Assembly (NCBI GenBank): GCA_903869075.1
Contig: CAIPXZ010000190.1
Span: 1 to 35,990 of the forward strand
Source: an uncultured Myxococcales bacterium
GTDB lineage: Bacteria; Myxococcota_A; UBA9042
Direction of reading: 5' to 3'
Length of the DNA stretch: 35,990 nt
Part shown: in pieces, positions 9,629 through 19,300 of the stretch
How positions within the stretch are numbered: the stretch's first letter is position 1
How the letters are laid out: the number at the start of each line of letters is the position of its first letter
The notes under the pieces: generated by a model
Told to the model about the DNA's origin: nothing
Seen by the model: the letters and a program-made list of their open reading frames with translations, nothing else
The model's database searches: none
Made by a program: the position numbers and the translations under genes

Positions 9629-11416
9629 CTAGCCGGCAAAGACCCGCAGGCAATTGCGGCCGGCGGCCTGGGCCGCGTGCATCGCCGTCTCCGCTTGTTG
9701 CAGCAAGGGATCACCGACGGCGTTGTCGTCGGGATAGACACTGAGGCCGATGCTGAACGATACCGATGCCGCGCGGCCGTTGACGAGCAACGGCTCCTGT
9801 AGCTGGTCCAGCAGCCGGGCGGCGTGCAGCACCGCGCTGGCGTTGTCGGCCACGGGCGTCAGCAGCACGACGAATTCCTCAGGCGCCATCCGCCCGGCCG
9901 TGTCGCTGCCGCGCACGGACGCCTGCAGCCGCTGCGCCACCGCCCGCGACACTGCGTCGCCCGTGCCGTCCGCCGGGTCCGACGGCGCGCGGCTGAACCA
10001 ATCCACGTGGATGCAAAGGACCGCGAACCGGCCGTTGTCGCGGCGCGCGTCCTCGACGGCCTGCTCCATGCGGTCCAGCAGCAGCAGCCGGTTCGGCAGA
10101 CCGGTCAGCGCATCCTGGTGCGCCAGCCGCGCCATGCGAATCGCCAGCGCGCGGGCCTCGCTGACGTCGTGCGCCACCACGACCACACCTGACGGCAGGC
10201 CGGCGGAGTCGTGCAGGGACGACAGCGAATACTCGACGGCGAGCTGCGACCCATCCCGCCGCAGCAGCCACGCCGCGCGCTTGTGCGGACCGGCATTTTG
10301 CCCGGCGATCGCCGCGCGCAGGTGATCCGCCTCCAGCTCGCCGGAGAACGCCCGCAGCGCCAGCACCGCCACGAGCGGCTGACCGATCGCCTCCGCCTGC
10401 GACAAGCGCGTCAGCGCCTCCGCCACGGGGTTCAGGTAGACGACGCGGCCCGCGGCATCCGCCGTCAATACCGCCTCGGTGATCGCCCCCAGCGTCGTCC
10501 GCGCCGCTTCCTTCTCGGCGTACAGCGCGTTTTCGGCAGTGCGGCGCGCGGTGATGTCCGTGAACATCACAAAGAAACCCTGCACTTCGCCGTCGCGCAC
10601 GTCCGGCACATAGGACGCCTGCGAATACACGACCTTGCCGTCCAGGCTCACGACGTCGCGGTAGAACACTTGCGCCTCGCCGCGCAGCGCCGCCTCGATG
10701 TGCGGCAGGTTCGCCCGGTACATCGGTTCGCCGACGACGTCGCGGATATGCTGGCCGCGCAGCGACTCCGGCGGGATGCCGAACCAATCGTAATACGCCT
10801 GGTTGGCGTGGCGGTTGCGCAGGTCGCGGTCCCAGTAGCCGATCAGCGCCGGCATGTGGTCCAGCACCATCCGCAGCTCGGCGGTCAGCCGTGTGCGCTC
10901 CGTCTCCGCCTGCTCGTACTCCACCGTCCGCCGCCGCAGCGTCAGCAGCTGCAGCACCTGCCCCGCCAGCAGCTCCAGCTGCCGCAGCGTGTCCTCGTCC
11001 AGCGGCCGCGGCACCACGTCCATCGCGCACAGCGCGCCCAGCGGGTAGCCCTCCGGCGAGCGCAGCGGCACGCCCGCGTACGCGCGCACGTGCGGCGGGC
11101 CAAGCACCAGCGGGCTGTCGGCGAACCGCGGATCCGCCAGCGTATCGGGCACCAGCAGCGGCGCGTTGTCGTGCACGACGTGGGCGCAAAACGCCGTGTC
11201 GCGCGGCGTCTCGCGGGTCAGTGCGCCGTGGTGCGCCTTGAACCACTGCCGGTCCGCGTCGACAAGCGAGATGAACACGAGCGGCACATTCAGCAGCCGC
11301 GCCGCCAGCTCGACGAGCGCGTCAAAAGCCGGCTCCTCCGCCGTGTCCAGGATGTGATACCGCGCCAGCGCGGCGAGGCGGGCCGCTTCATCGGCTGGTT
11401 TGGCGGCAACCTGCAT
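9629..11416 (-). CDS. GAF-PAS-PAS protein with degenerate GGDEF domain
   Basis: The 595-residue protein has no signal peptide or membrane segment. Residues ~15-160 are a GAF domain of the type that starts ARYHILDTAEEPAFD and contains GVPLRSPEGYPLGALC. PAS domains follow at ~185-295 (MLDHMPALIGYWDRDLR-like start, YDWFGIPPESLRG) and ~300-420. Residues ~432-595 are GGDEF-like (LTGLPNR at ~436), but the signature is A511-P-E-E-F instead of GGDEF and the first metal Asp is His (IHVDWF). The inhibitory-site motif RxxD (R502, D505) is kept at the correct five-residue distance. It is therefore probably a c-di-GMP receptor or regulatory pseudo-cyclase rather than an active diguanylate cyclase. It lies 86 nt downstream of the NACHT-like gene, so co-transcription is possible. 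Confidence 0.85.
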   Translation of the reverse strand: MQVAAKPADEAARLAALARYHILDTAEEPAFDALVELAARLLNVPLVFISLVDADRQWFKAHHGALTRETPRDTAFCAHVVHDNAPLLVPDTLADPRFADSPLVLGPPHVRAYAGVPLRSPEGYPLGALCAMDVVPRPLDEDTLRQLELLAGQVLQLLTLRRRTVEYEQAETERTRLTAELRMVLDHMPALIGYWDRDLRNRHANQAYYDWFGIPPESLRGQHIRDVVGEPMYRANLPHIEAALRGEAQVFYRDVVSLDGKVVYSQASYVPDVRDGEVQGFFVMFTDITARRTAENALYAEKEAARTTLGAITEAVLTADAAGRVVYLNPVAEALTRLSQAEAIGQPLVAVLALRAFSGELEADHLRAAIAGQNAGPHKRAAWLLRRDGSQLAVEYSLSSLHDSAGLPSGVVVVAHDVSEARALAIRMARLAHQDALTGLPNRLLLLDRMEQAVEDARRDNGRFAVLCIHVDWFSRAPSDPADGTGDAVSRAVAQRLQASVRGSDTAGRMAPEEFVVLLTPVADNASAVLHAARLLDQLQEPLLVNGRAASVSFSIGLSVYPDDNAVGDPLLQQAETAMHAAQAAGRNCLRVFAG

Positions 11417-11502
11417 CGCGTCAACCCCGGGCCGAGCGTTGGATCACTCGCCACTGCTTGCGGAGTCTAGCGAACCAAAATCTGCTGGCAAGTTGCGGCG
11501 AT

Positions 11503-13038
11503 TTACGGCGTGCTGATTGTGCCTTCCATCGAGCTGATTGTGTTCTTGGTGCACAACTTCCAGTGCGTCGCCTCATAACCGCTGCGCATTTGTTGAATAA
11601 TCTGCGGCCGCGCCTTGCCAATGGGCAAACCAGCATCGAGTATTTCCACCTGATCCGCCTTCAAATTCTTGATCCGGCTGCAGCGGTCGTCCAGCAGCGG
11701 CATCAGACATTTCAGGCCAGCCGGCTCGGCGATCAGGAAGCGGAACACCTCGTCATCCTTGATAAACTCCGCGTGCTTGAAGGCTGCGCTGCAGTTGCCA
11801 GCTTTTTGCGTCGCCAGCTCGGCATCGATCCACCGTGCCACAAATAGATCCGCGAGGCTGGTGCTGGCGAACGCGACGGCCGGCTCGCCGGCGATCGGCC
11901 GGAACAGCGCGGACTGGAACAGTTTTTCGCAGACGCGCTCGTGATTCTCGTCTGAAGTCTGGCTAGCCGTGTCGACAACTGCCTTGCAATCCGCCAGATC
12001 GAGGCGGACGTCCGCGCGCTCCTCGCGGCGCAATTTCGGCGCCACAAGCCGATCGACAAGCGTCAACGCCTGCGCCTCGTTCCAGCCCAACTCCCGCAAT
12101 TCCTTGGTCAACCGCGCGCCGACGAGCGCCTCGTGCACATGCGCCCGGCTGACAATCAGCTCGGATTTGGGTTCCATCGATTTGTGGTGAAAATCAATCA
12201 GCGTCTTGATGTCGCCAAAGCTGGCGAGGTACGGATATGTGCAATCATCCGCCACGGTCGCCCGTTCATCCAAGCCATAGCGGTGCAGGAATTGCAGGAA
12301 TTGTTGGCGCGCCGTCGCGTCTTTGATGGCCGTGGCGATAAACGCGTCGGTGTCCTTGCACTGCAACGTGTGGATGGCAAAGTGCGCGTCCAGCGCCGTG
12401 AAGCCGTAGTCCGCGTCCAGCACCGGCGGCCGCGCCAGCAAAATGAACTGCGCCGCCGGCAGCTTGGCCACGGCGTCATTCCAGGCCAGCAGCACCACGT
12501 TGCGCCGCGCGGTCTCGACCTCGTCCACGCCGTCCAGCAGGAACAGCGCGCGGCCGGCCGCGACCTCCTGGACAAACGCCGCCACGTCCGGCCCCGTCTC
12601 CGCCTGCACCGCAGCGAACAACGGGTTGCCGGCGCCGCTGGAATTCGCCACCGCCTTGGCGTCCACCAAAAACACCGGCAGCTTGCCGCACAGCTGGCCA
12701 CGCAGGGACTCCGCCAGCCGCGACTTGCCCAGCCCGCCGCGGGCAAAGATCGACGCGCGCTTGACCTCGCCCTTGGCCAGCACGTCCACAAGCTGCGCTT
12801 CGCTGAGCATCGTCTCGGCGTGCCCGGGCCACTGCGCGACAACCAGCGTCATCGGCGTGTAGTTGTTCTGCGCCTTCTCATGGCGCTGCGTGCCGGCATT
12901 GAATTCGCACTTTTTGCCGTACGCCAGCGCCTGCGGACTCTGCGGCCCGCTGACTTGCGCCGTACCGCCGCCGCACCCCGTCAACGCCGCCGCCGCCAGC
13001 AGCGCCGCGACGTTTTGCCTCCAAGCCATCGCCGTCAT
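11503..13038 (-). CDS. predicted lipoprotein with NACHT-like STAND NTPase domain
   Basis: The 511-residue protein starts at an ATG with GAGG six nt upstream, 21 nt after the SurA-like gene. Residues 1-22 form a lipoprotein signal (basic start, hydrophobic AALLAAAALTGC; lipobox LTGC, Cys22, followed by Gly, not an inner-membrane-retention Asp). Residues ~93-235 are a NACHT-type NTPase: P-loop FARGGLGKSRLAE (Lys105, Ser106), Walker B ALFLLDGVDEVE (residues 164-175, the DGxDE hallmark), and a sensor-1-like FILLARP (198-204). Residues ~235-400 are helical, as after other NACHT modules; the last ~110 are unclassified. Ten cysteines after Cys22 fit an oxidising compartment. NACHT proteins are normally cytosolic signalling ATPases, so export is puzzling. 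Later in-frame ATGs (residues 63, 77) lack a clear ribosome site. Function unknown. Confidence 0.75.
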   Translation of the reverse strand: MTAMAWRQNVAALLAAAALTGCGGGTAQVSGPQSPQALAYGKKCEFNAGTQRHEKAQNNYTPMTLVVAQWPGHAETMLSEAQLVDVLAKGEVKRASIFARGGLGKSRLAESLRGQLCGKLPVFLVDAKAVANSSGAGNPLFAAVQAETGPDVAAFVQEVAAGRALFLLDGVDEVETARRNVVLLAWNDAVAKLPAAQFILLARPPVLDADYGFTALDAHFAIHTLQCKDTDAFIATAIKDATARQQFLQFLHRYGLDERATVADDCTYPYLASFGDIKTLIDFHHKSMEPKSELIVSRAHVHEALVGARLTKELRELGWNEAQALTLVDRLVAPKLRREERADVRLDLADCKAVVDTASQTSDENHERVCEKLFQSALFRPIAGEPAVAFASTSLADLFVARWIDAELATQKAGNCSAAFKHAEFIKDDEVFRFLIAEPAGLKCLMPLLDDRCSRIKNLKADQVEILDAGLPIGKARPQIIQQMRSGYEATHWKLCTKNTISSMEGTISTP

Positions 13039-13059
13039 GATTTGCCTCGCCCGCGGCCG

Positions 13060-14118
13060 CTACAGCCGGACGTCAATGTGGGCACTGCCGCGCATCTCAT
13101 CCAGCCAGGCCTTGTAGAGCTTGGTGAACTGCTCTTCCTGCAGGCGCGCGCGGACAAATTGCTCCAGCACTTCCTTGTCCTTGACCGGCACCCGCCGCCG
13201 CTCGAGGAACTGGATGATGTGAAAGCCATACGGCGTCTGGACCACCGTCGAGATTTCGCCCGGTTGCAGCGACCACAGCTTGCCGCCAAAGGTCGGATCC
13301 AGCGTCCAGCGCTTCTGCCAGCCCAGGTCGCCGTGGCCCTCGGACGTCGCCGAGTCGTCATTGCAGTCGTCCGCCACTTCGTCCCACGGCTTTTTGTGCA
13401 CCGCCACGTCGTCGTAGCAATGCCAGGCGCGGTCGCGCAGCTCGGTCACGCGCTGCGGGCTGGCGTCATCGGGCACGCCGATCAGCATGTGCCGCGAGTG
13501 CACCTCGTCCTCAAACTGCCCGCCGGCGTATTCCTGGTCGATGATGCGCTTGACCTCGTCCTCGGTCACCCGCAGCTTGCCGGCGATCTTCGCCCGCAGC
13601 ATCTGCACCCGCACCATCTCCGTGCGCACGTGCGCGCGGTACGCCGCGAGCGTCGGAAAGCCCATGTTGCGGACGATCTCCTCGAATTCGTCCAGCGTCT
13701 TGTGCATCCGCTTGCGCGTCTGGTCGATTTGCCCGTCGACCTCGCCATCGCTGACGACGAGGCCCAAGTCTTTCGCGGCCTTGGCTACCAGCGCGTTGTC
13801 GATCAGCGTGTCCAGCGTCTGCTTGCGCAGCGCCTCGGGGCTGCGCGGCTCGGCGGTCTGGATCGGGTCATTGCCGCCGCGCGTCTGGCCCATCGCCCGG
13901 CGCAGCTCGCTCTGCAAAATCGCCGTATCGCCGACGGTGGCGACGACGCCGTCCACCTCCTGATAGCCCTGCGGCAACGTCGCGCGGCGCACCGCCAGCA
14001 CCGGCTTCTGCGGCTTGGCCGGCTCTTCCTTGCCCGGCGGCGGCGGATCCGCGGCAAACGCCGCCAGCGGCACAGCCAGCAGCGCCAGCGCCGCCAGCGT
14101 AGGGGTCAGTTTGCACAT
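13060..14118 (-). CDS. SurA-like periplasmic parvulin peptidyl-prolyl isomerase
   Basis: The 352-residue protein has a Sec signal peptide (TLAALALLAVPLAAFAA, cleavage near residue 23). A SurA-type N-terminal chaperone region spans ~55-200 (VDGVVATVGDTAILQSELRRAM, LRKQTLDTLIDNALVAKAAKD). One parvulin domain spans ~203-310: HSRHMLIGVPDD, DLGWQKRWTLDPTFGGKLW, LQPGEISTVVQTPYGFHIIQFLERR. A cysteine pair lies inside the isomerase domain. SurA-like proteins chaperone outer-membrane proteins and catalyse proline cis-trans isomerisation. There is one isomerase domain where E. coli SurA has two. The start lies 3 nt after the upstream parvulin-lipoprotein stop, so the two are translationally coupled; the NACHT-like lipoprotein follows after 21 nt. 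Confidence 0.88.
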   Translation of the reverse strand: MCKLTPTLAALALLAVPLAAFAADPPPPGKEEPAKPQKPVLAVRRATLPQGYQEVDGVVATVGDTAILQSELRRAMGQTRGGNDPIQTAEPRSPEALRKQTLDTLIDNALVAKAAKDLGLVVSDGEVDGQIDQTRKRMHKTLDEFEEIVRNMGFPTLAAYRAHVRTEMVRVQMLRAKIAGKLRVTEDEVKRIIDQEYAGGQFEDEVHSRHMLIGVPDDASPQRVTELRDRAWHCYDDVAVHKKPWDEVADDCNDDSATSEGHGDLGWQKRWTLDPTFGGKLWSLQPGEISTVVQTPYGFHIIQFLERRRVPVKDKEVLEQFVRARLQEEQFTKLYKAWLDEMRGSAHIDVRL

Positions 14119-14121
14119 GGC

Positions 14122-15237
14122 TTACAGCTCAGACGGCGTCGGATCCGCCGGTTGCTTGTTGTTGGAGACGCCTGGCGGCACGGCGCCCTGGCCCGGCGCG
14201 CCCTTGCCCTTGCCCGCTGGCGGTTGCACCGGCAGCAGGCGCAGCGCGTCGTCGTTCAGGTCGATCTTCGCCGCGGCGCGCAGGTCGTCGACCAGCTTCT
14301 GGCGGCGCAGGTCGCGCTCGCGCTTGACGATGCGGGTGCGAATGGAGTCGCGGACATCGGCAAAAGCCTTGTCCACAGCTGGAATTTTCGAGGTCACCAT
14401 CAGCACATGCCAGCCCTGCGGCGACTGCACCGGCGTGCCGATGGTAAAGATTTCGCGGCCCATCGCCGCCTCAATGACCTGCGCCGGCACCCGCGCCAGC
14501 CGCTCGAGATCTGCCGGCGCCGCGCCCGACGGCGGCGTCCGCGACACAAGCCCCAGCGAGCCGAGGTACGGAATCGTCGCCTGATCCTGCGACAGCCGCC
14601 CGACGTAGTCGTTCCACGCCACCACGAGCTTGGCCGACGCGCCTTCCGACGCCGACCGCAGTTCTTTGGCGATGCGCTCTGCCGTCGCCGCGTCCGCGAC
14701 AAGGATGTGGCTGACCTCGACCTGCTCCGGCTTGTGGTACAGCCCGGGATTGGCGTCGTAATACTTCTGCAAGTCCGCGTCCGTAAAGCTCTCCGGCTTG
14801 ACAGCTTCCACCGCCGTGTCCGCCAGGAACTTGCGCACCATCGCCTGCTTGGCGGCTTCCAGCACTTCCGGATCGCTCGCCAGCCCGCGCCGCGCCGCTT
14901 CCGCCGCCAGCAGCTCGAACTGCACGAGACTCGTCAGGTATTCCTTGCGCTTTTGCGTGCTGGCAAACTGACTGCGCACCACCGCCGGCTCATGCGCCAG
15001 CCGCGCCTCGATCTCGCCCAGCGTGATCGTGTGGTCGCCAATGCGCGCCACCACGGTCGCGCGCTGCTCCGCGGTCAGCTGGGAATCGTCGAGGTTGATG
15101 TGCGCGTTCGGCACCTGTTCCACCGTCGCCTGCTGCGCTTTCTCGGTGATGCCGGGACCCGCCGGATGCGGCCGCGCGGGCTTGCCGCACGCGACGGTGG
15201 CGAGGAGGAGGGGCAAAAGGGCGAAGTTTCGGCGCAT
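14122..15237 (-). CDS. PpiC-type parvulin lipoprotein (PrsA/SurA-like foldase)
   Basis: The 371-residue protein starts at the ATG at 15237, chosen for the GGAGG just upstream and the lipoprotein signal that follows (NFALLPLLLATVAC, lipobox TVAC at about residue 17); the frame extends further upstream without coding character. A SurA_N-like region (VVARIGDHTITLGEIEARLA, then LVQFELLAAEAARRGL) is followed at ~170-310 by a parvulin domain: QVEVSHILVAD, YLGSLGLVSR, FTIGTPVQSPQGWHVLMVTSK. The tail is Pro/Gly/Lys-rich. It should act as a lipid-anchored periplasmic prolyl isomerase and chaperone. It is the first gene of a minus-strand run with the SurA-like and NACHT-like genes. Confidence 0.88.
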   Translation of the reverse strand: MRRNFALLPLLLATVACGKPARPHPAGPGITEKAQQATVEQVPNAHINLDDSQLTAEQRATVVARIGDHTITLGEIEARLAHEPAVVRSQFASTQKRKEYLTSLVQFELLAAEAARRGLASDPEVLEAAKQAMVRKFLADTAVEAVKPESFTDADLQKYYDANPGLYHKPEQVEVSHILVADAATAERIAKELRSASEGASAKLVVAWNDYVGRLSQDQATIPYLGSLGLVSRTPPSGAAPADLERLARVPAQVIEAAMGREIFTIGTPVQSPQGWHVLMVTSKIPAVDKAFADVRDSIRTRIVKRERDLRRQKLVDDLRAAAKIDLNDDALRLLPVQPPAGKGKGAPGQGAVPPGVSNNKQPADPTPSEL

Positions 15238-15325
15238 GCAAACCTCCGCCCAAGGGGACGGCGGGTGTGTTTTGGCAGGTTTGGCGCAGCGGCGCAACCT
15301 CCGATGCACCGAGCCCGAGGACATC

Positions 15326-15354
15326 TTGACACGATCCGGCGCAAGCCCCAGCCT
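15326..15354 (+). promoter_or_regulatory. candidate promoter in the divergent region before the STT3-tail-like gene
   Basis: TTGACA (15326-15331), a perfect -35 consensus, is followed after 17 bp by CAGCCT (15349-15354), which keeps only A2 and T6 of a -10. It lies 40 nt before the ATG at 15394 within the 156-bp divergent intergenic region shared with the parvulin lipoprotein gene on the other strand. The -10 is poor, so this is a weak call. Confidence 0.25.
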
Positions 15355-15386
15355 CAGCCGGCCCGGGCCACCGCCCGCTGTCCATG

Positions 15387-15454
15387 CTGACCGATGTCCA
15401 ACGTCCCAAACTTCCCGGTCAGACCTGTCGCATTTCGGAGTAGATCCGGGCGCG
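15387..15454 (+). repeat. imperfect direct repeat, copy A (overlaps gene start)
   Basis: CTGACCGATGTCC (15387-15399) is identical to 16215-16227. The following ~55 bp align with copy B with one 1-nt gap; the last 35 bp match at 27 positions (CAGACC-GT-GCAT-TCGGA-T-GATCC pattern). Copy A contains the ATG of the STT3-tail-like gene. Confidence 0.75.
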
Positions 15455-16209
15455 TCCACCGCCTGTGCTTGCTGCTGCTCCTCGGCAGCGCGGCCGCCTG
15501 CGCCGCCAAACCCGCGCCCGTGATGGTGCCGCCGGAGTTGGCCGAGATCGTGACCTGGCTGCGCGCGCATCCGCCAGCGGCCAACGTGCTGACGCTGACC
15601 GAGACCGGCGCGGCTGCCGTGCGCCAGGCCGCGCACACGCCGGTTGTCGACGGCCAAGGCCAGCTGGGGCTGCTCGGCCGTGACGCCAAGGCGCTGCTGC
15701 AGACGATGGCCGACAAGCGCCTGGACTACCTGCTGACCACCGAGCCGGACCTGCATGACGCGCCGGCGCTGACCAAGGACAAGGCCGTGCTCGTGCCGTC
15801 GGTGCTGCAGCACCTGATCAGCCTCTACGGCACCGGGACGCGCGACCAGGCCTGCGTCGACGGCTTGCAGCTCGTGGCGACGTCGAGCGCGATTCGCAAC
15901 GTCGGCGGCCGGCACCTGCCCGCAGCGATGCTGTTCCACCGCGTGCCGGGCGCGCGCCTGCAGCTGCACAAGCTAGTGCCGGGCATTCCGGTGCGCGTGG
16001 AGACGACGCGGACGTTCGCCGGCCAGGTCTTCGTGTTTGACTGCCAGACGCGCGCGGACGCCACCGGCAACCTCGACATGCGCTTTCCGTACCCGAGCTT
16101 GCCGACCGCGCCGGTGCGCATGTGGACCGCGGTCAGCAAGTCCGGCGACCCGATCGCCATCAGCGCCGAGGCCGTCGACAAAGGCCAGATCGTCGATCTC
16201 TCGCTCTGA
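15394..16209 (+). CDS. lipoprotein-like protein resembling the periplasmic tail of STT3/AglB-type GT-C enzymes
   Basis: The 271-residue protein starts at an ATG with a poor ribosome site; no better start exists before the hydrophobic segment. Residues ~24-36 (LCLLLLLGSAAAC) look like a lipoprotein signal with a weak lipobox, Cys36. The rest has no membrane helix. EIVTWLRAHPPAANVL, then HTPVVDGQG, then KALLQTMADKRLDYLL follows the order of the soluble domain of STT3/AglB oligosaccharyltransferases and related GT-C enzymes (helix, substrate-loop strand, DYxx strand). The end (LFHRVPGARLQL, PGIPVRVETTRTFAG, a FPYPS strand) resembles AglB's terminal beta domain. The catalytic WWD motif of STT3 is absent (TLTETG in its place) and there is no 13-helix membrane domain, so it cannot be a transferase by itself. 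The relationship is my reading and is tentative. Confidence 0.5.
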   Translation: MSNVPNFPVRPVAFRSRSGRVHRLCLLLLLGSAAACAAKPAPVMVPPELAEIVTWLRAHPPAANVLTLTETGAAAVRQAAHTPVVDGQGQLGLLGRDAKALLQTMADKRLDYLLTTEPDLHDAPALTKDKAVLVPSVLQHLISLYGTGTRDQACVDGLQLVATSSAIRNVGGRHLPAAMLFHRVPGARLQLHKLVPGIPVRVETTRTFAGQVFVFDCQTRADATGNLDMRFPYPSLPTAPVRMWTAVSKSGDPIAISAEAVDKGQIVDLSL

Positions 16210-16214
16210 ACATC

Positions 16215-16281
16215 CTGACCGATGTCCCAGGCCAAGTTCTTCCAGCCAGACCAGTTGCATCTCGGACTGGATCCACGAGCG
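16215..16281 (+). repeat. imperfect direct repeat, copy B (just past the gene end)
   Basis: This is the partner of the repeat at 15387-15454, starting six nt after the stop codon of the STT3-tail-like gene. It contains an ATG at the same place as copy A, opening a 32-codon frame (16222-16320) that ends in TGA. That frame (FFQPDQLHLGLDPRA) has a faint look of a transposase N-terminus but is too short to assign. The pair suggests duplication of the 5' region of this gene, or the ends of a decayed element. Confidence 0.7.
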
Positions 16282-16346
16282 TGCGCCGAAGGTGGCACGC
16301 CGCAGCTGAAAACGGTTTGATCGCGAAATTCGCTCGGCGTGTTTAG

Positions 16347-19300
16347 TCAGCGCCGCCCGACCATCCGCAGCCGGCCGCTGTGGCGCGGATCGACCGTCAG
16401 CTGGCGCGGCGCCTCCGGCTCCGGCATCACGTCAATCACCACGTCCGCCGGGTTCTCCGACCACCGCCGCAGCGTCCGCAGCAGCTCTTTTGTCGCCGCC
16501 ACAGGCGCTTCCTGCTCGCGCGGCGTCAGCGTCTTGGTCAGCACCATGTCCGGCGTCAGCCGATACAGCGAGCCGCGCTGGTTGATGAGCGGCAGCAGCG
16601 TCTCCGGCTGCAGCTTGCCGCGCTCGTGCAGCGTCAGCGCCACCGCCATCGGACCTTGCTCGACTTTTTGCACGCCCAGCGCGATCGCCAGCACGCGCAG
16701 CTCCAGCGTCTCGAACAGCGCCTGCCCGGGCGGCGGCAGCCGGCCGTAGCGGTCGACAACAGCGCGCATCGCCGCGTCCAGCTCCGCCTCATTGCGCACG
16801 CCCGCCAGCCGCTTGTACGCCGCCAAACGCTGCGTCGGATCCGGCACATACGTCTCCGGCAGGAACGCCGTCAGCGCGACCTTGATCTCCGGATCCACCG
16901 GCGCGCCCAGGTCCTCGCCGCGGATTTCCTGCACCGCCTCTTCCAGCAGCTTGACGTACAGCTCGTAGCCGATCTCGGCGATGTGGCCGGTCTGCTCCTC
17001 GCCCAGCAGGTTGCCGGCGCCGCGGATCTCCAGGTCATGGCTGGCAATTTGCACGCCCGAGCCCAGCTCCGAGAACCGCTCCAGCACCGCCACGCGCCGC
17101 GCGCCGTCAGTCGTCATCCGCTCGCGCTCCGGCACGGTCAGGTAGCACCACGCGCGCACGCTCGATCGCCCCACGCGTCCGCGCAGCTGGTACAACTGCG
17201 CGAGGCCAAACGTGTCGGCGCGCTCGATGAACATCGTGTTGGCGTTGGGAATGTCCAAGCCCGACTCAATAATCGTCGTTGAAATCAAGACGTTGCATTC
17301 GCGGCGCATGAATTTCAGCATCGCGTCTTCCAGCTCGCCTTCCTCCATCTGGCCGTGCGCCACCACCGGCCGCACGCTCGGCACCAGCGACTTCAGGTGC
17401 TCCGCGATCTCCGGCAGCCGCGCGATGCGGTTGCAGACGTAAAACGCCTGGCCGCCGCGGTTCAGCTCGCGCTCCAGCGCCTCCTGCAGCACGTCATCGG
17501 CGCCGCGGCAGACGATCGTGCGCACCGACTTGCGGTTCTCCGGCGGCGTGGCGATCAGCGATAAATCGCGCAGCCCCAGCGTCGCCAACTGCAGCGTCCG
17601 CGGGATCGGCGTCGCGGACAGCGTCATGCAGTCGATGTTGGTCCGCCATTTCTTGATGGCCTCCTTGTGGCCGACGCCAAAACGGTGCTCTTCGTCGATG
17701 ATCAACAGGCCCAAATCGCGGAAATTCACGTCCTTGGAAAGCAGCCGGTGCGTGCCGACGATGATGTCGATCTCGCCCTTGTTCAGCGCCTCGATCGTCT
17801 CGCGCTGCTCCGCGGCGCTCAAAAACCGCGACAGCGACGCGACCTTGATCGGCAAGCCCTGGCAGCGCTCGGCGAACGTCAGGCGATGCTGCTCCGCCAG
17901 GACCGTCGTCGGCGCCAACACCGCGACTTGCTTGCCGTCCAGCGCCACTTTCACCGCCGCGCGGATCGCGACTTCGGTCTTGCCATAGCCGACGTCGCCG
18001 CACACGAGCCGGTCCATCGGCCGCGGCAGGCTCAGGTCAATCAGCACGTCGTCGATCGCCCGCTGCTGGTCCGGCGTCTCTTCCCACGGGAACGACGCCT
18101 CCCACTCGCGGTACACTTCATCGGGCGGCGAAAACGCGTGACCCGGCCGCGCCGCGCGCTCGGCATACAGCCGCACCAGCTCCTGCGCCGCCTCCGCCAC
18201 GGCCTTTTTGGCCCGGCGCTTGGCCTTCAGCCAGCGATCGTGGCCGAGTCGATCCAGCTGCGGCGACGCGTCCTCACCGGAGACGAACTTTTGCACGCGC
18301 TCCAGGCTCGTCACCGGCACGTACAACCGCTGGTCTTCCTTGTAGATAATCAGCAGGAAGTCCTGCTCGATGCCGCCCGCCGCCATGCGCTGCAGCCCGA
18401 CGTAGCGGCCAATGCCGTGGTCGACGTGCACGATGTAGTCGCCCTCGGTCAGCTCCGCCATGTCGCGAATCAGCTGGCCGGCCGAGCGTTTTTTGCGCAG
18501 CTGCTGCGGCTTGACGGTCTTGTGGCCAAAAATCTCGTCCTCGTCGATCACGACGAGCTTGAGCGCCTCGATGTGGTAGCCTTCGCCCGAGCCGCCCAGC
18601 ACCAACAGCGCGTCCAGGTCCTTGCGCAGCCGCAGCGTCGGCATATCCGCCGGCCGCAGGGGGCCCTGGTGGAACTCGCTGCCGATGCCGTAGTGCCGCA
18701 AAATCGTCGCCAGCCGCTCGCGGCCGCCTTCGGAGTGCGCGGCAATCACCACCAATTCCTGCAACTTGCGCGCCATGCGGATGCGCTGCACAAGTGGCCG
18801 CAGGCCCTCGTCGCGGCCGCGCGCCTCGTGCAGCTCGCGCGCCACATCGCGGTTGTTGCCGACGTCCAGCTGGAACGTCGGCGCCGTACGGCCCTCCTCA
18901 AAAATCGCGAACGGCCGCACATATAGCTGCGTATGCGTCTGCAATTGCTGGCGAATCTCATCCGGAGACGCCGCCAGCTGCTCGGGCGGATAGCACAGCC
19001 GCTGCGCCGCCTGCGCCTCGGCGTACTGCAGCCGCAGCTGCTGCCACGCCGCTTCCAGCGCCTGGAAACAGGCGTCCGGCTGGTCCAGCACCACGATCGG
19101 CGAGGCGTTGCCGGTCAGCGGCGCGAGCTGCAGGATCGTCGCCTGGTCCGGCGTGATGCCGGCGCGCAGCGCTTCCAGCCCCGGCACCACGTGGCCGGCG
19201 CGCAGCTCGTCCAGGATCGCCCGCAGCTCGACGTTGCCGACGTCGTGCAAATCCGCCAAATCCGTCAGGTTCTTGCCCGCGAGCGCCAGGCTGCCCGGGT

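Follow-up and report, generated by a model that had tools for sequence, protein, structure and literature searches.

The window, i.e., the whole stretch of 35,990 nucleotides analysed here (contig CAIPXZ010000190.1 of an uncultured Myxococcales bacterium), encodes a predicted lipoprotein, P0001, that on balance is likely to be an envelope-anchored, disulphide-braced NACHT-like NTPase responding as a switch to nucleotide encountered in the periplasm or extracellularly (Table 1). Judged from its sequence relatives, it is part of a new clade of NACHT-like NTPases that is exported. STAND/NACHT NTPases are otherwise known to act as switches inside the cell. If an entire family of orthologues is exported, lipid-anchored and braced by disulphides but keeps the catalytic residues, either such switches would be able to draw on nucleotide beyond the cytoplasm or the fold would serve some non-canonical purpose as yet undescribed.

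Table 1 P0001, its predicted features and its upstream neighbours, in window coordinates.
Feature	Position	Strand	Basis
Exported NACHT-like lipoprotein gene, P0001, 511 aa	11503..13038	-	ATG at 13038, stop at 11503-11505
Predicted signal peptide, residues 1-21, MTAMAWRQNVAALLAAAALTG	12976..13038	-	Equivalent in 79/79 members
Lipobox Cys22, Gly at +2	12973..12975	-	Cys 79/79; -1 A/G/S 79/79; +2 never Asp
Cys44, invariant	12907..12909	-	Family alignment
NACHT-like nucleotide-binding domain, about residues 79-205	12424..12804	-	hhalign to cytosolic NACHTs; AF2 alpha/beta order
P-loop ARGGLGKS, residues 99-106	12721..12744	-	K105 99%, S/T106 100% (79 members)
Walker B DGVDE, residues 169-173	12520..12534	-	D169 100%, D/E172 98%, E173 97%
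Sensor Arg203-Pro204	12427..12432	-	R203 100%, P204 99%
Cys227, putative disulphide partner of Cys266	12358..12360	-	Joint loss in the same 3/84 members
Cys266, putative disulphide partner of Cys227	12241..12243	-	Joint loss in the same 3/84 members
Winged-helix motif FASTSLADLFVARW, residues 390-403	11830..11871	-	Aligns with FxHxSFxEYFAA of cytosolic NACHTs
SurA-like periplasmic peptidyl-prolyl isomerase, directly upstream, gap of about 20 bp	13060..14118	-	Pfam Rotamase 1.5e-16, SurA_N_3 1.5e-16
PPIC-type isomerase lipoprotein (MRRNFALLPLLLATVAC), first gene of an apparent three-gene operon	14122..15237	-	Pfam Rotamase_2 1.5e-16

The open reading frame singled out by an earlier, sequence-only reading proved to be real and lies on the minus strand. 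Each of the four further species searched in the genus has an orthologue with 73–81% identity to it, and dN/dS values of 0.14–0.24 among the five orthologues within the genus indicate purifying selection, so that P0001 can be regarded as a functional coding gene. Matches to the family were obtained in 22/22 genomes searched of the bacterial family (10 genera), at 2–6 copies per genome; the genome of the window (89% complete) holds the window copy and four further relatives, one of which is ended by a contig edge and one of which is divergent. The order-level search returned the same 22 genomes. At class level, full-length members appeared in just two further genomes (G051 of family f12 and G033 of family f3), and one additional genome gave a weak match confined to the nucleotide-binding domain (NBD). 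Profile searches were confined to the phylum Myxococcota, where 379 genomes yielded a split member in G272 and remaining matches that were mostly weak, NBD-only and located in open frames of roughly 670–1570 aa. A quick tree resolves several subfamilies, every one of them drawn from many genera, and the copies therefore look vertically inherited and individually retained. Pfam NACHT proteins proper were found in 4/21 of the same genomes, compared with 22/22 for the exported family; the exported family is core to its lineage, whereas Pfam NACHTs show the patchy pattern of defence genes. An anti-phage NACHT/Avs defence system was considered and rejected, since PADLOC models gave scattered weak matches to one or two members (best E 0.0021) and presence in 22/22 genomes is not patchy. 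No relative of the family was found on viral contigs, NCBIfam returned nothing for the window protein beyond a weak LptM signal-sequence match, and Rfam gave no match over window positions 11000–16500. Two family members lie side by side in several genera (L036, L037, L050, L023/L035, L038, L044), with gaps of about 40–110 bp in most cases and larger or interrupted ones in L038 and L044; this arrangement suggests that adjoining members form heteromeric pairs.

The motifs named by the sequence-only reading (LTGC with Cys22, GGLGKS with Lys105, DGxDE at residues 169–173 and LLARP) are present as described, LLARP at residues 200–204. The P-loop conforms to the Walker A pattern GxxxxGK[ST], though Ala99 replaces the textbook first Gly, and its GK is 99–100% conserved; FLLDGVDEV conforms to the Walker B pattern of hhhhD with an acidic pair. 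Of the family's 22 most conserved positions, the majority are catalytic residues or cysteines. With K105, D169, E173 and R203 conserved at 97–100% across 79 members, most of which share about 20–45% identity with the window protein, the nucleotide site does not appear vestigial. It is nevertheless conceivable, if unlikely, that the P-loop is a relic and that the exported protein, having given up the use of nucleotide, serves as a disulphide-rich scaffold, a chaperone-like helper or a structural lipoprotein. Little nucleotide is available beyond the cytoplasm, the ADP-contacting winged-helix His is absent in most members, and the subclade of L074 and L089 has a degraded Walker B, reading DSLHE (DSLHEV) and DSLHD (DSLHDL), respectively, with the P-loop Lys also lost in L089, an apparently truncated protein. 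Decay within this one subclade, however, shows that the residues can go when they are not needed and implies that the site is kept by selection in the remaining members. A vestigial P-loop, one of the options of the sequence-only reading, thus does not fit as a general case, the catalytic residues being among the most conserved positions.

The NTPase groups with NACHT rather than with AAA or ArsA, an assignment for which profile comparisons provide strong support. Comparison profiles for hhalign were built from the related genomes' own proteins, the NACHT profile from 23 cytosolic NACHTs. The full family profile matched NACHT at 7.6e-18, AAA at 4.5e-9 and ArsA/Get3 at 2.1e-5, and the NACHT alignment spanned 304 columns, reaching into the winged-helix motif, while that to AAA covered the NBD only and that to ArsA/Get3 52 columns. 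An ArsA/Get3-like or AAA+ P-loop protein unrelated to NACHT could explain why the P-loop, RGGxGKS, resembles the deviant motif of ArsA, and why a profile search of the PDB returned P-loop matches only, with ArsA chains best (E 0.0019); a search with the window protein alone gave no match. With the P-loop removed (residues 1–113), however, NACHT remained at 3.9e-13, whereas AAA fell to 2.5e-4 and ArsA to 0.72, and the hhhhDGhDE, ARP and winged-helix motifs fit NACHT. We consequently dropped the ArsA assignment and hold either non-NACHT class to be very unlikely; the NACHT-like core proposed by the sequence-only reading is supported.

The family nonetheless appears to be a remote or new clade relative to Pfam PF05729, against which the window protein scores 15.8 bits, below the 26.7 cut-off, and which 12/79 members match at E<0.01, the best of them at 2.1e-7. 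The region after the NBD alone matched NACHT over 22 columns at the winged-helix motif with E 0.0075, compared with 0.07–0.8 for thirteen unrelated controls, aligning W.F..qsl.DLFlARW with F.H.sf.EylAA; given that this match covers just 22 columns, a winged helix is probable, short of proven. In NLRs the winged-helix His contacts ADP. At this position 15/79 members have His, the others mostly Asn or Asp, and the window protein Ser. AF2 modelling of the full-length protein from a three-sequence alignment gave a mean pLDDT of 46, and truncation to residues 60–411 raised the mean to 56, with improvement in the NBD only, the best-modelled part at about 59–88 per block. Because of this low confidence, fold and disulphide geometry rest on the sequence profiles. 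Foldseek on these models ranked NLRC4/NAIP5 first (E 2.6e-3, none below E 1e-3), followed by Avs4, NLRC4 and NOD2 among others (E 7e-3 to 4e-2), a ranking that is consistent with NACHT while not reaching significance. No sensor repeat or effector domain was recognised in the window protein.

Members of the window's subfamily lie 6–39 bp downstream of the SurA-like isomerase gene in 5/5 species of the genus (for the copy L007 in G006 this neighbour was read from coordinates), and the PPIC-type isomerase lipoprotein precedes the SurA-like gene in all five. In another subfamily, the next gene on the same strand at twelve loci in several genera is c2, whose product has a signal peptide, looks beta-rich by eye, matches ImpL63 weakly and has no Pfam domain; at eight of the twelve it is followed by c9, encoding a lipoprotein-like product also lacking a Pfam match. 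Other subfamilies adjoin genes for a PPC-domain lipoprotein and TldD, or ThiF/rhodanese and SRPBCC genes, and because the latter neighbours look cytoplasmic, adjacency is a weak guide to function. Downstream of the P0001 gene, the window encodes a GAF-PAS-PAS-GGDEF protein (9632–11416, minus strand) in which the cyclase motif reads RMAPEEF, whereas orthologues in other species have RMGGDEF or RFGGDEF; this copy is therefore probably devoid of cyclase activity. A very cysteine-rich protein of NPCTxDxCDxxxGxC-like repeats (38 Cys in 238 aa) is cut by the window edge at positions 2–716 of the plus strand.

Export of P0001 and its lipid anchoring, as the sequence-only reading had suggested from the lipobox LTG-Cys22, are strongly indicated by comparison across the family. 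In 79/79 aligned members a hydrophobic N-terminal segment (median KD of the core 2.4) ends in an invariant Cys, followed at +2 by Gly in 57/79, Ser in 14/79 and Asp in 0/79, and the n-region is net positive in 73/79. These 79 are the members whose sequence extends to the N-terminus, their starts being assigned by rule relative to the lipobox Cys; all but one of those excluded run into the end of a contig or locus, the exception being L070, in which MSC occupies the expected position. Homologues do not begin near residue 63 without the lipobox, and an internal start at Met63 was discarded, as Met occurs there in 4/79 members and the upstream Cys22 and Cys44 are invariant. A twin-arginine-like N-terminus in just 3/79 members led us to reject Tat export of a nucleotide-loaded fold. 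The lipobox is replaced in three divergent relatives, by a transmembrane anchor preceded by basic residues in L077 (a second paralogue in the window's genome) and L135 (G272) and by an ordinary signal peptide in L133 (G033). Since these relatives would still be exported by another route, export, beyond the lipobox alone, seems to be the conserved trait. The divergent paralogue L077 (G000:C262, 1–1673), TM-anchored, keeps eight of the ten cysteines.

The mature part contains ten cysteines besides Cys22 (44, 117, 227, 266, 351, 370, 416, 444, 453 and 496), the number already counted from the sequence, and their behaviour across the family agrees with the oxidising location that had been proposed on that basis. 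All ten are 97–100% conserved and 70/79 members have exactly ten. Among 84 near-complete members the sole genuine losses concern Cys227 and Cys266, apparent losses at Cys351 and Cys453 being alignment shifts with a Cys nearby. This pair is absent together in L074, L132 and L077, which come from separate lineages (G001, G051 and the divergent G000 paralogue, respectively); three joint losses are what a disulphide between them predicts. About five disulphide bonds would brace the mature domain. Median Cys content is 2.20% in the family vs. 1.15% in neighbouring genes as called automatically. DsbA domains occur in 21/21 genomes, and in the window's genome VKOR and a DsbA domain share one open frame of 951 aa, which indicates that oxidising machinery is present. 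The number of DsbA-domain matches ranges from 8 to 28 per genome (G000–G021), many of them in multi-domain frames of 500–900 aa.

These properties bear on two further explanations. If P0001 were an effector lipoprotein delivered to other cells, by outer-membrane exchange like SitA or by vesicles, it would meet ATP in the recipient, and myxobacteria do pass polymorphic lipoprotein toxins by outer-membrane exchange, as far as the cited accounts of SitA go (PMC5562445, PMC8546572). We consider this role very improbable, however: members have neither a recognisable toxin domain nor a consistent immunity-like neighbour, orthologous copies occur in every genome instead of being polymorphic and patchy, and the disulphides would be lost once exposed to a reducing cytosol. 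An uncleaved N-terminal anchor, which the sequence-only reading allowed for, would keep the NTPase domain on the cytosolic side in the manner of ordinary membrane-tethered STAND proteins and would make the ATP problem disappear. It is extremely improbable, however: the lipobox is invariant, the positive n-region directs the C-terminus outward, the ten cysteines are conserved and include a co-lost pair, and the same outward orientation applies to the relatives that carry a TM anchor or a plain signal peptide.

We therefore favour an exported NTPase that still uses nucleotide. P0001 would be a Sec-exported lipoprotein, probably of the outer membrane, the mature part of which forms a compact NACHT-type NTPase consisting of a short N-terminal helical part, the nucleotide-binding domain, a winged-helix-like region and a C-terminal helical part. 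ATP or a related nucleotide reaching the periplasm or cell surface would presumably be bound; speculatively, it may have leaked, arrived in vesicles or come from lysed neighbours or prey. Binding could then induce a conformational change or oligomerisation and thereby an action on envelope proteins, both the switching and the partners being speculative, and the window copy may act with the SurA-like folding factors of its apparent operon. The earlier statement that the periplasm lacks ATP was too strong: for E. coli, a review gives about 24 µM (per 10^10 bacteria) of steady-state periplasmic ATP when external ATP is provided, and also reports ATP in outer-membrane vesicles, noting the route of ATP from the cytosol as unknown (PMC7432876). 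The question of periplasmic and extracellular bacterial ATP raised there (PMC7432876) becomes directly testable with one purified protein. More tentatively, and as a doubtful extension, this lineage of myxobacteria may have taken a NACHT immune-type switch out of the cytoplasm and diversified it into several sensors in the envelope for extracellular nucleotides, which would make it a bacterial analogue of purinergic danger sensing.

We know of no NTPase among the SitA toxins of Myxococcus. Going by the cited accounts, these are likewise myxobacterial lipoproteins, but they are toxins transferred between cells, whereas the exported NACHT-like family is devoid of a toxin domain (PMC5562445, PMC8546572). 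The likeness to ArsA/Get3 ATPases consists of the short GGxGK[ST] P-loop, with none outside it. In the open-access literature we found one predicted periplasmic NACHT domain and no lipid-anchored NACHT family, in agreement with the sequence-only reading, which likewise knew of none described. The former is NACHT-CLec, the second target of DGR 3 (a diversity-generating retroelement) in Thiohalocapsa PB-PSB1, where the periplasmic placement of the NACHT domain is, in the account cited, a prediction without experiment (PMC10907252). According to that account it is one target protein, a hypervariable lectin fusion with a sister target predicted to be cytoplasmic, and its description there mentions neither a lipoprotein nor conserved cysteines (PMC10907252). 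The best profile match of the exported family is the NACHT clade of STAND NTPases (NLRC4, NAIP, NOD2; bacterial NACHT and Avs; PF05729), with which it has in common the P-loop, hhhhDGhDE, the Arg-Pro sensor and, probably, the winged-helix FxxxSxxDLFxAR motif. In contrast to that clade, its members are predicted to be lipid-anchored and disulphide-rich, measure about 500 aa with no LRR/TPR/WD40 sensor or effector domain, usually lack the winged-helix His, and are core to their lineage rather than patchy.
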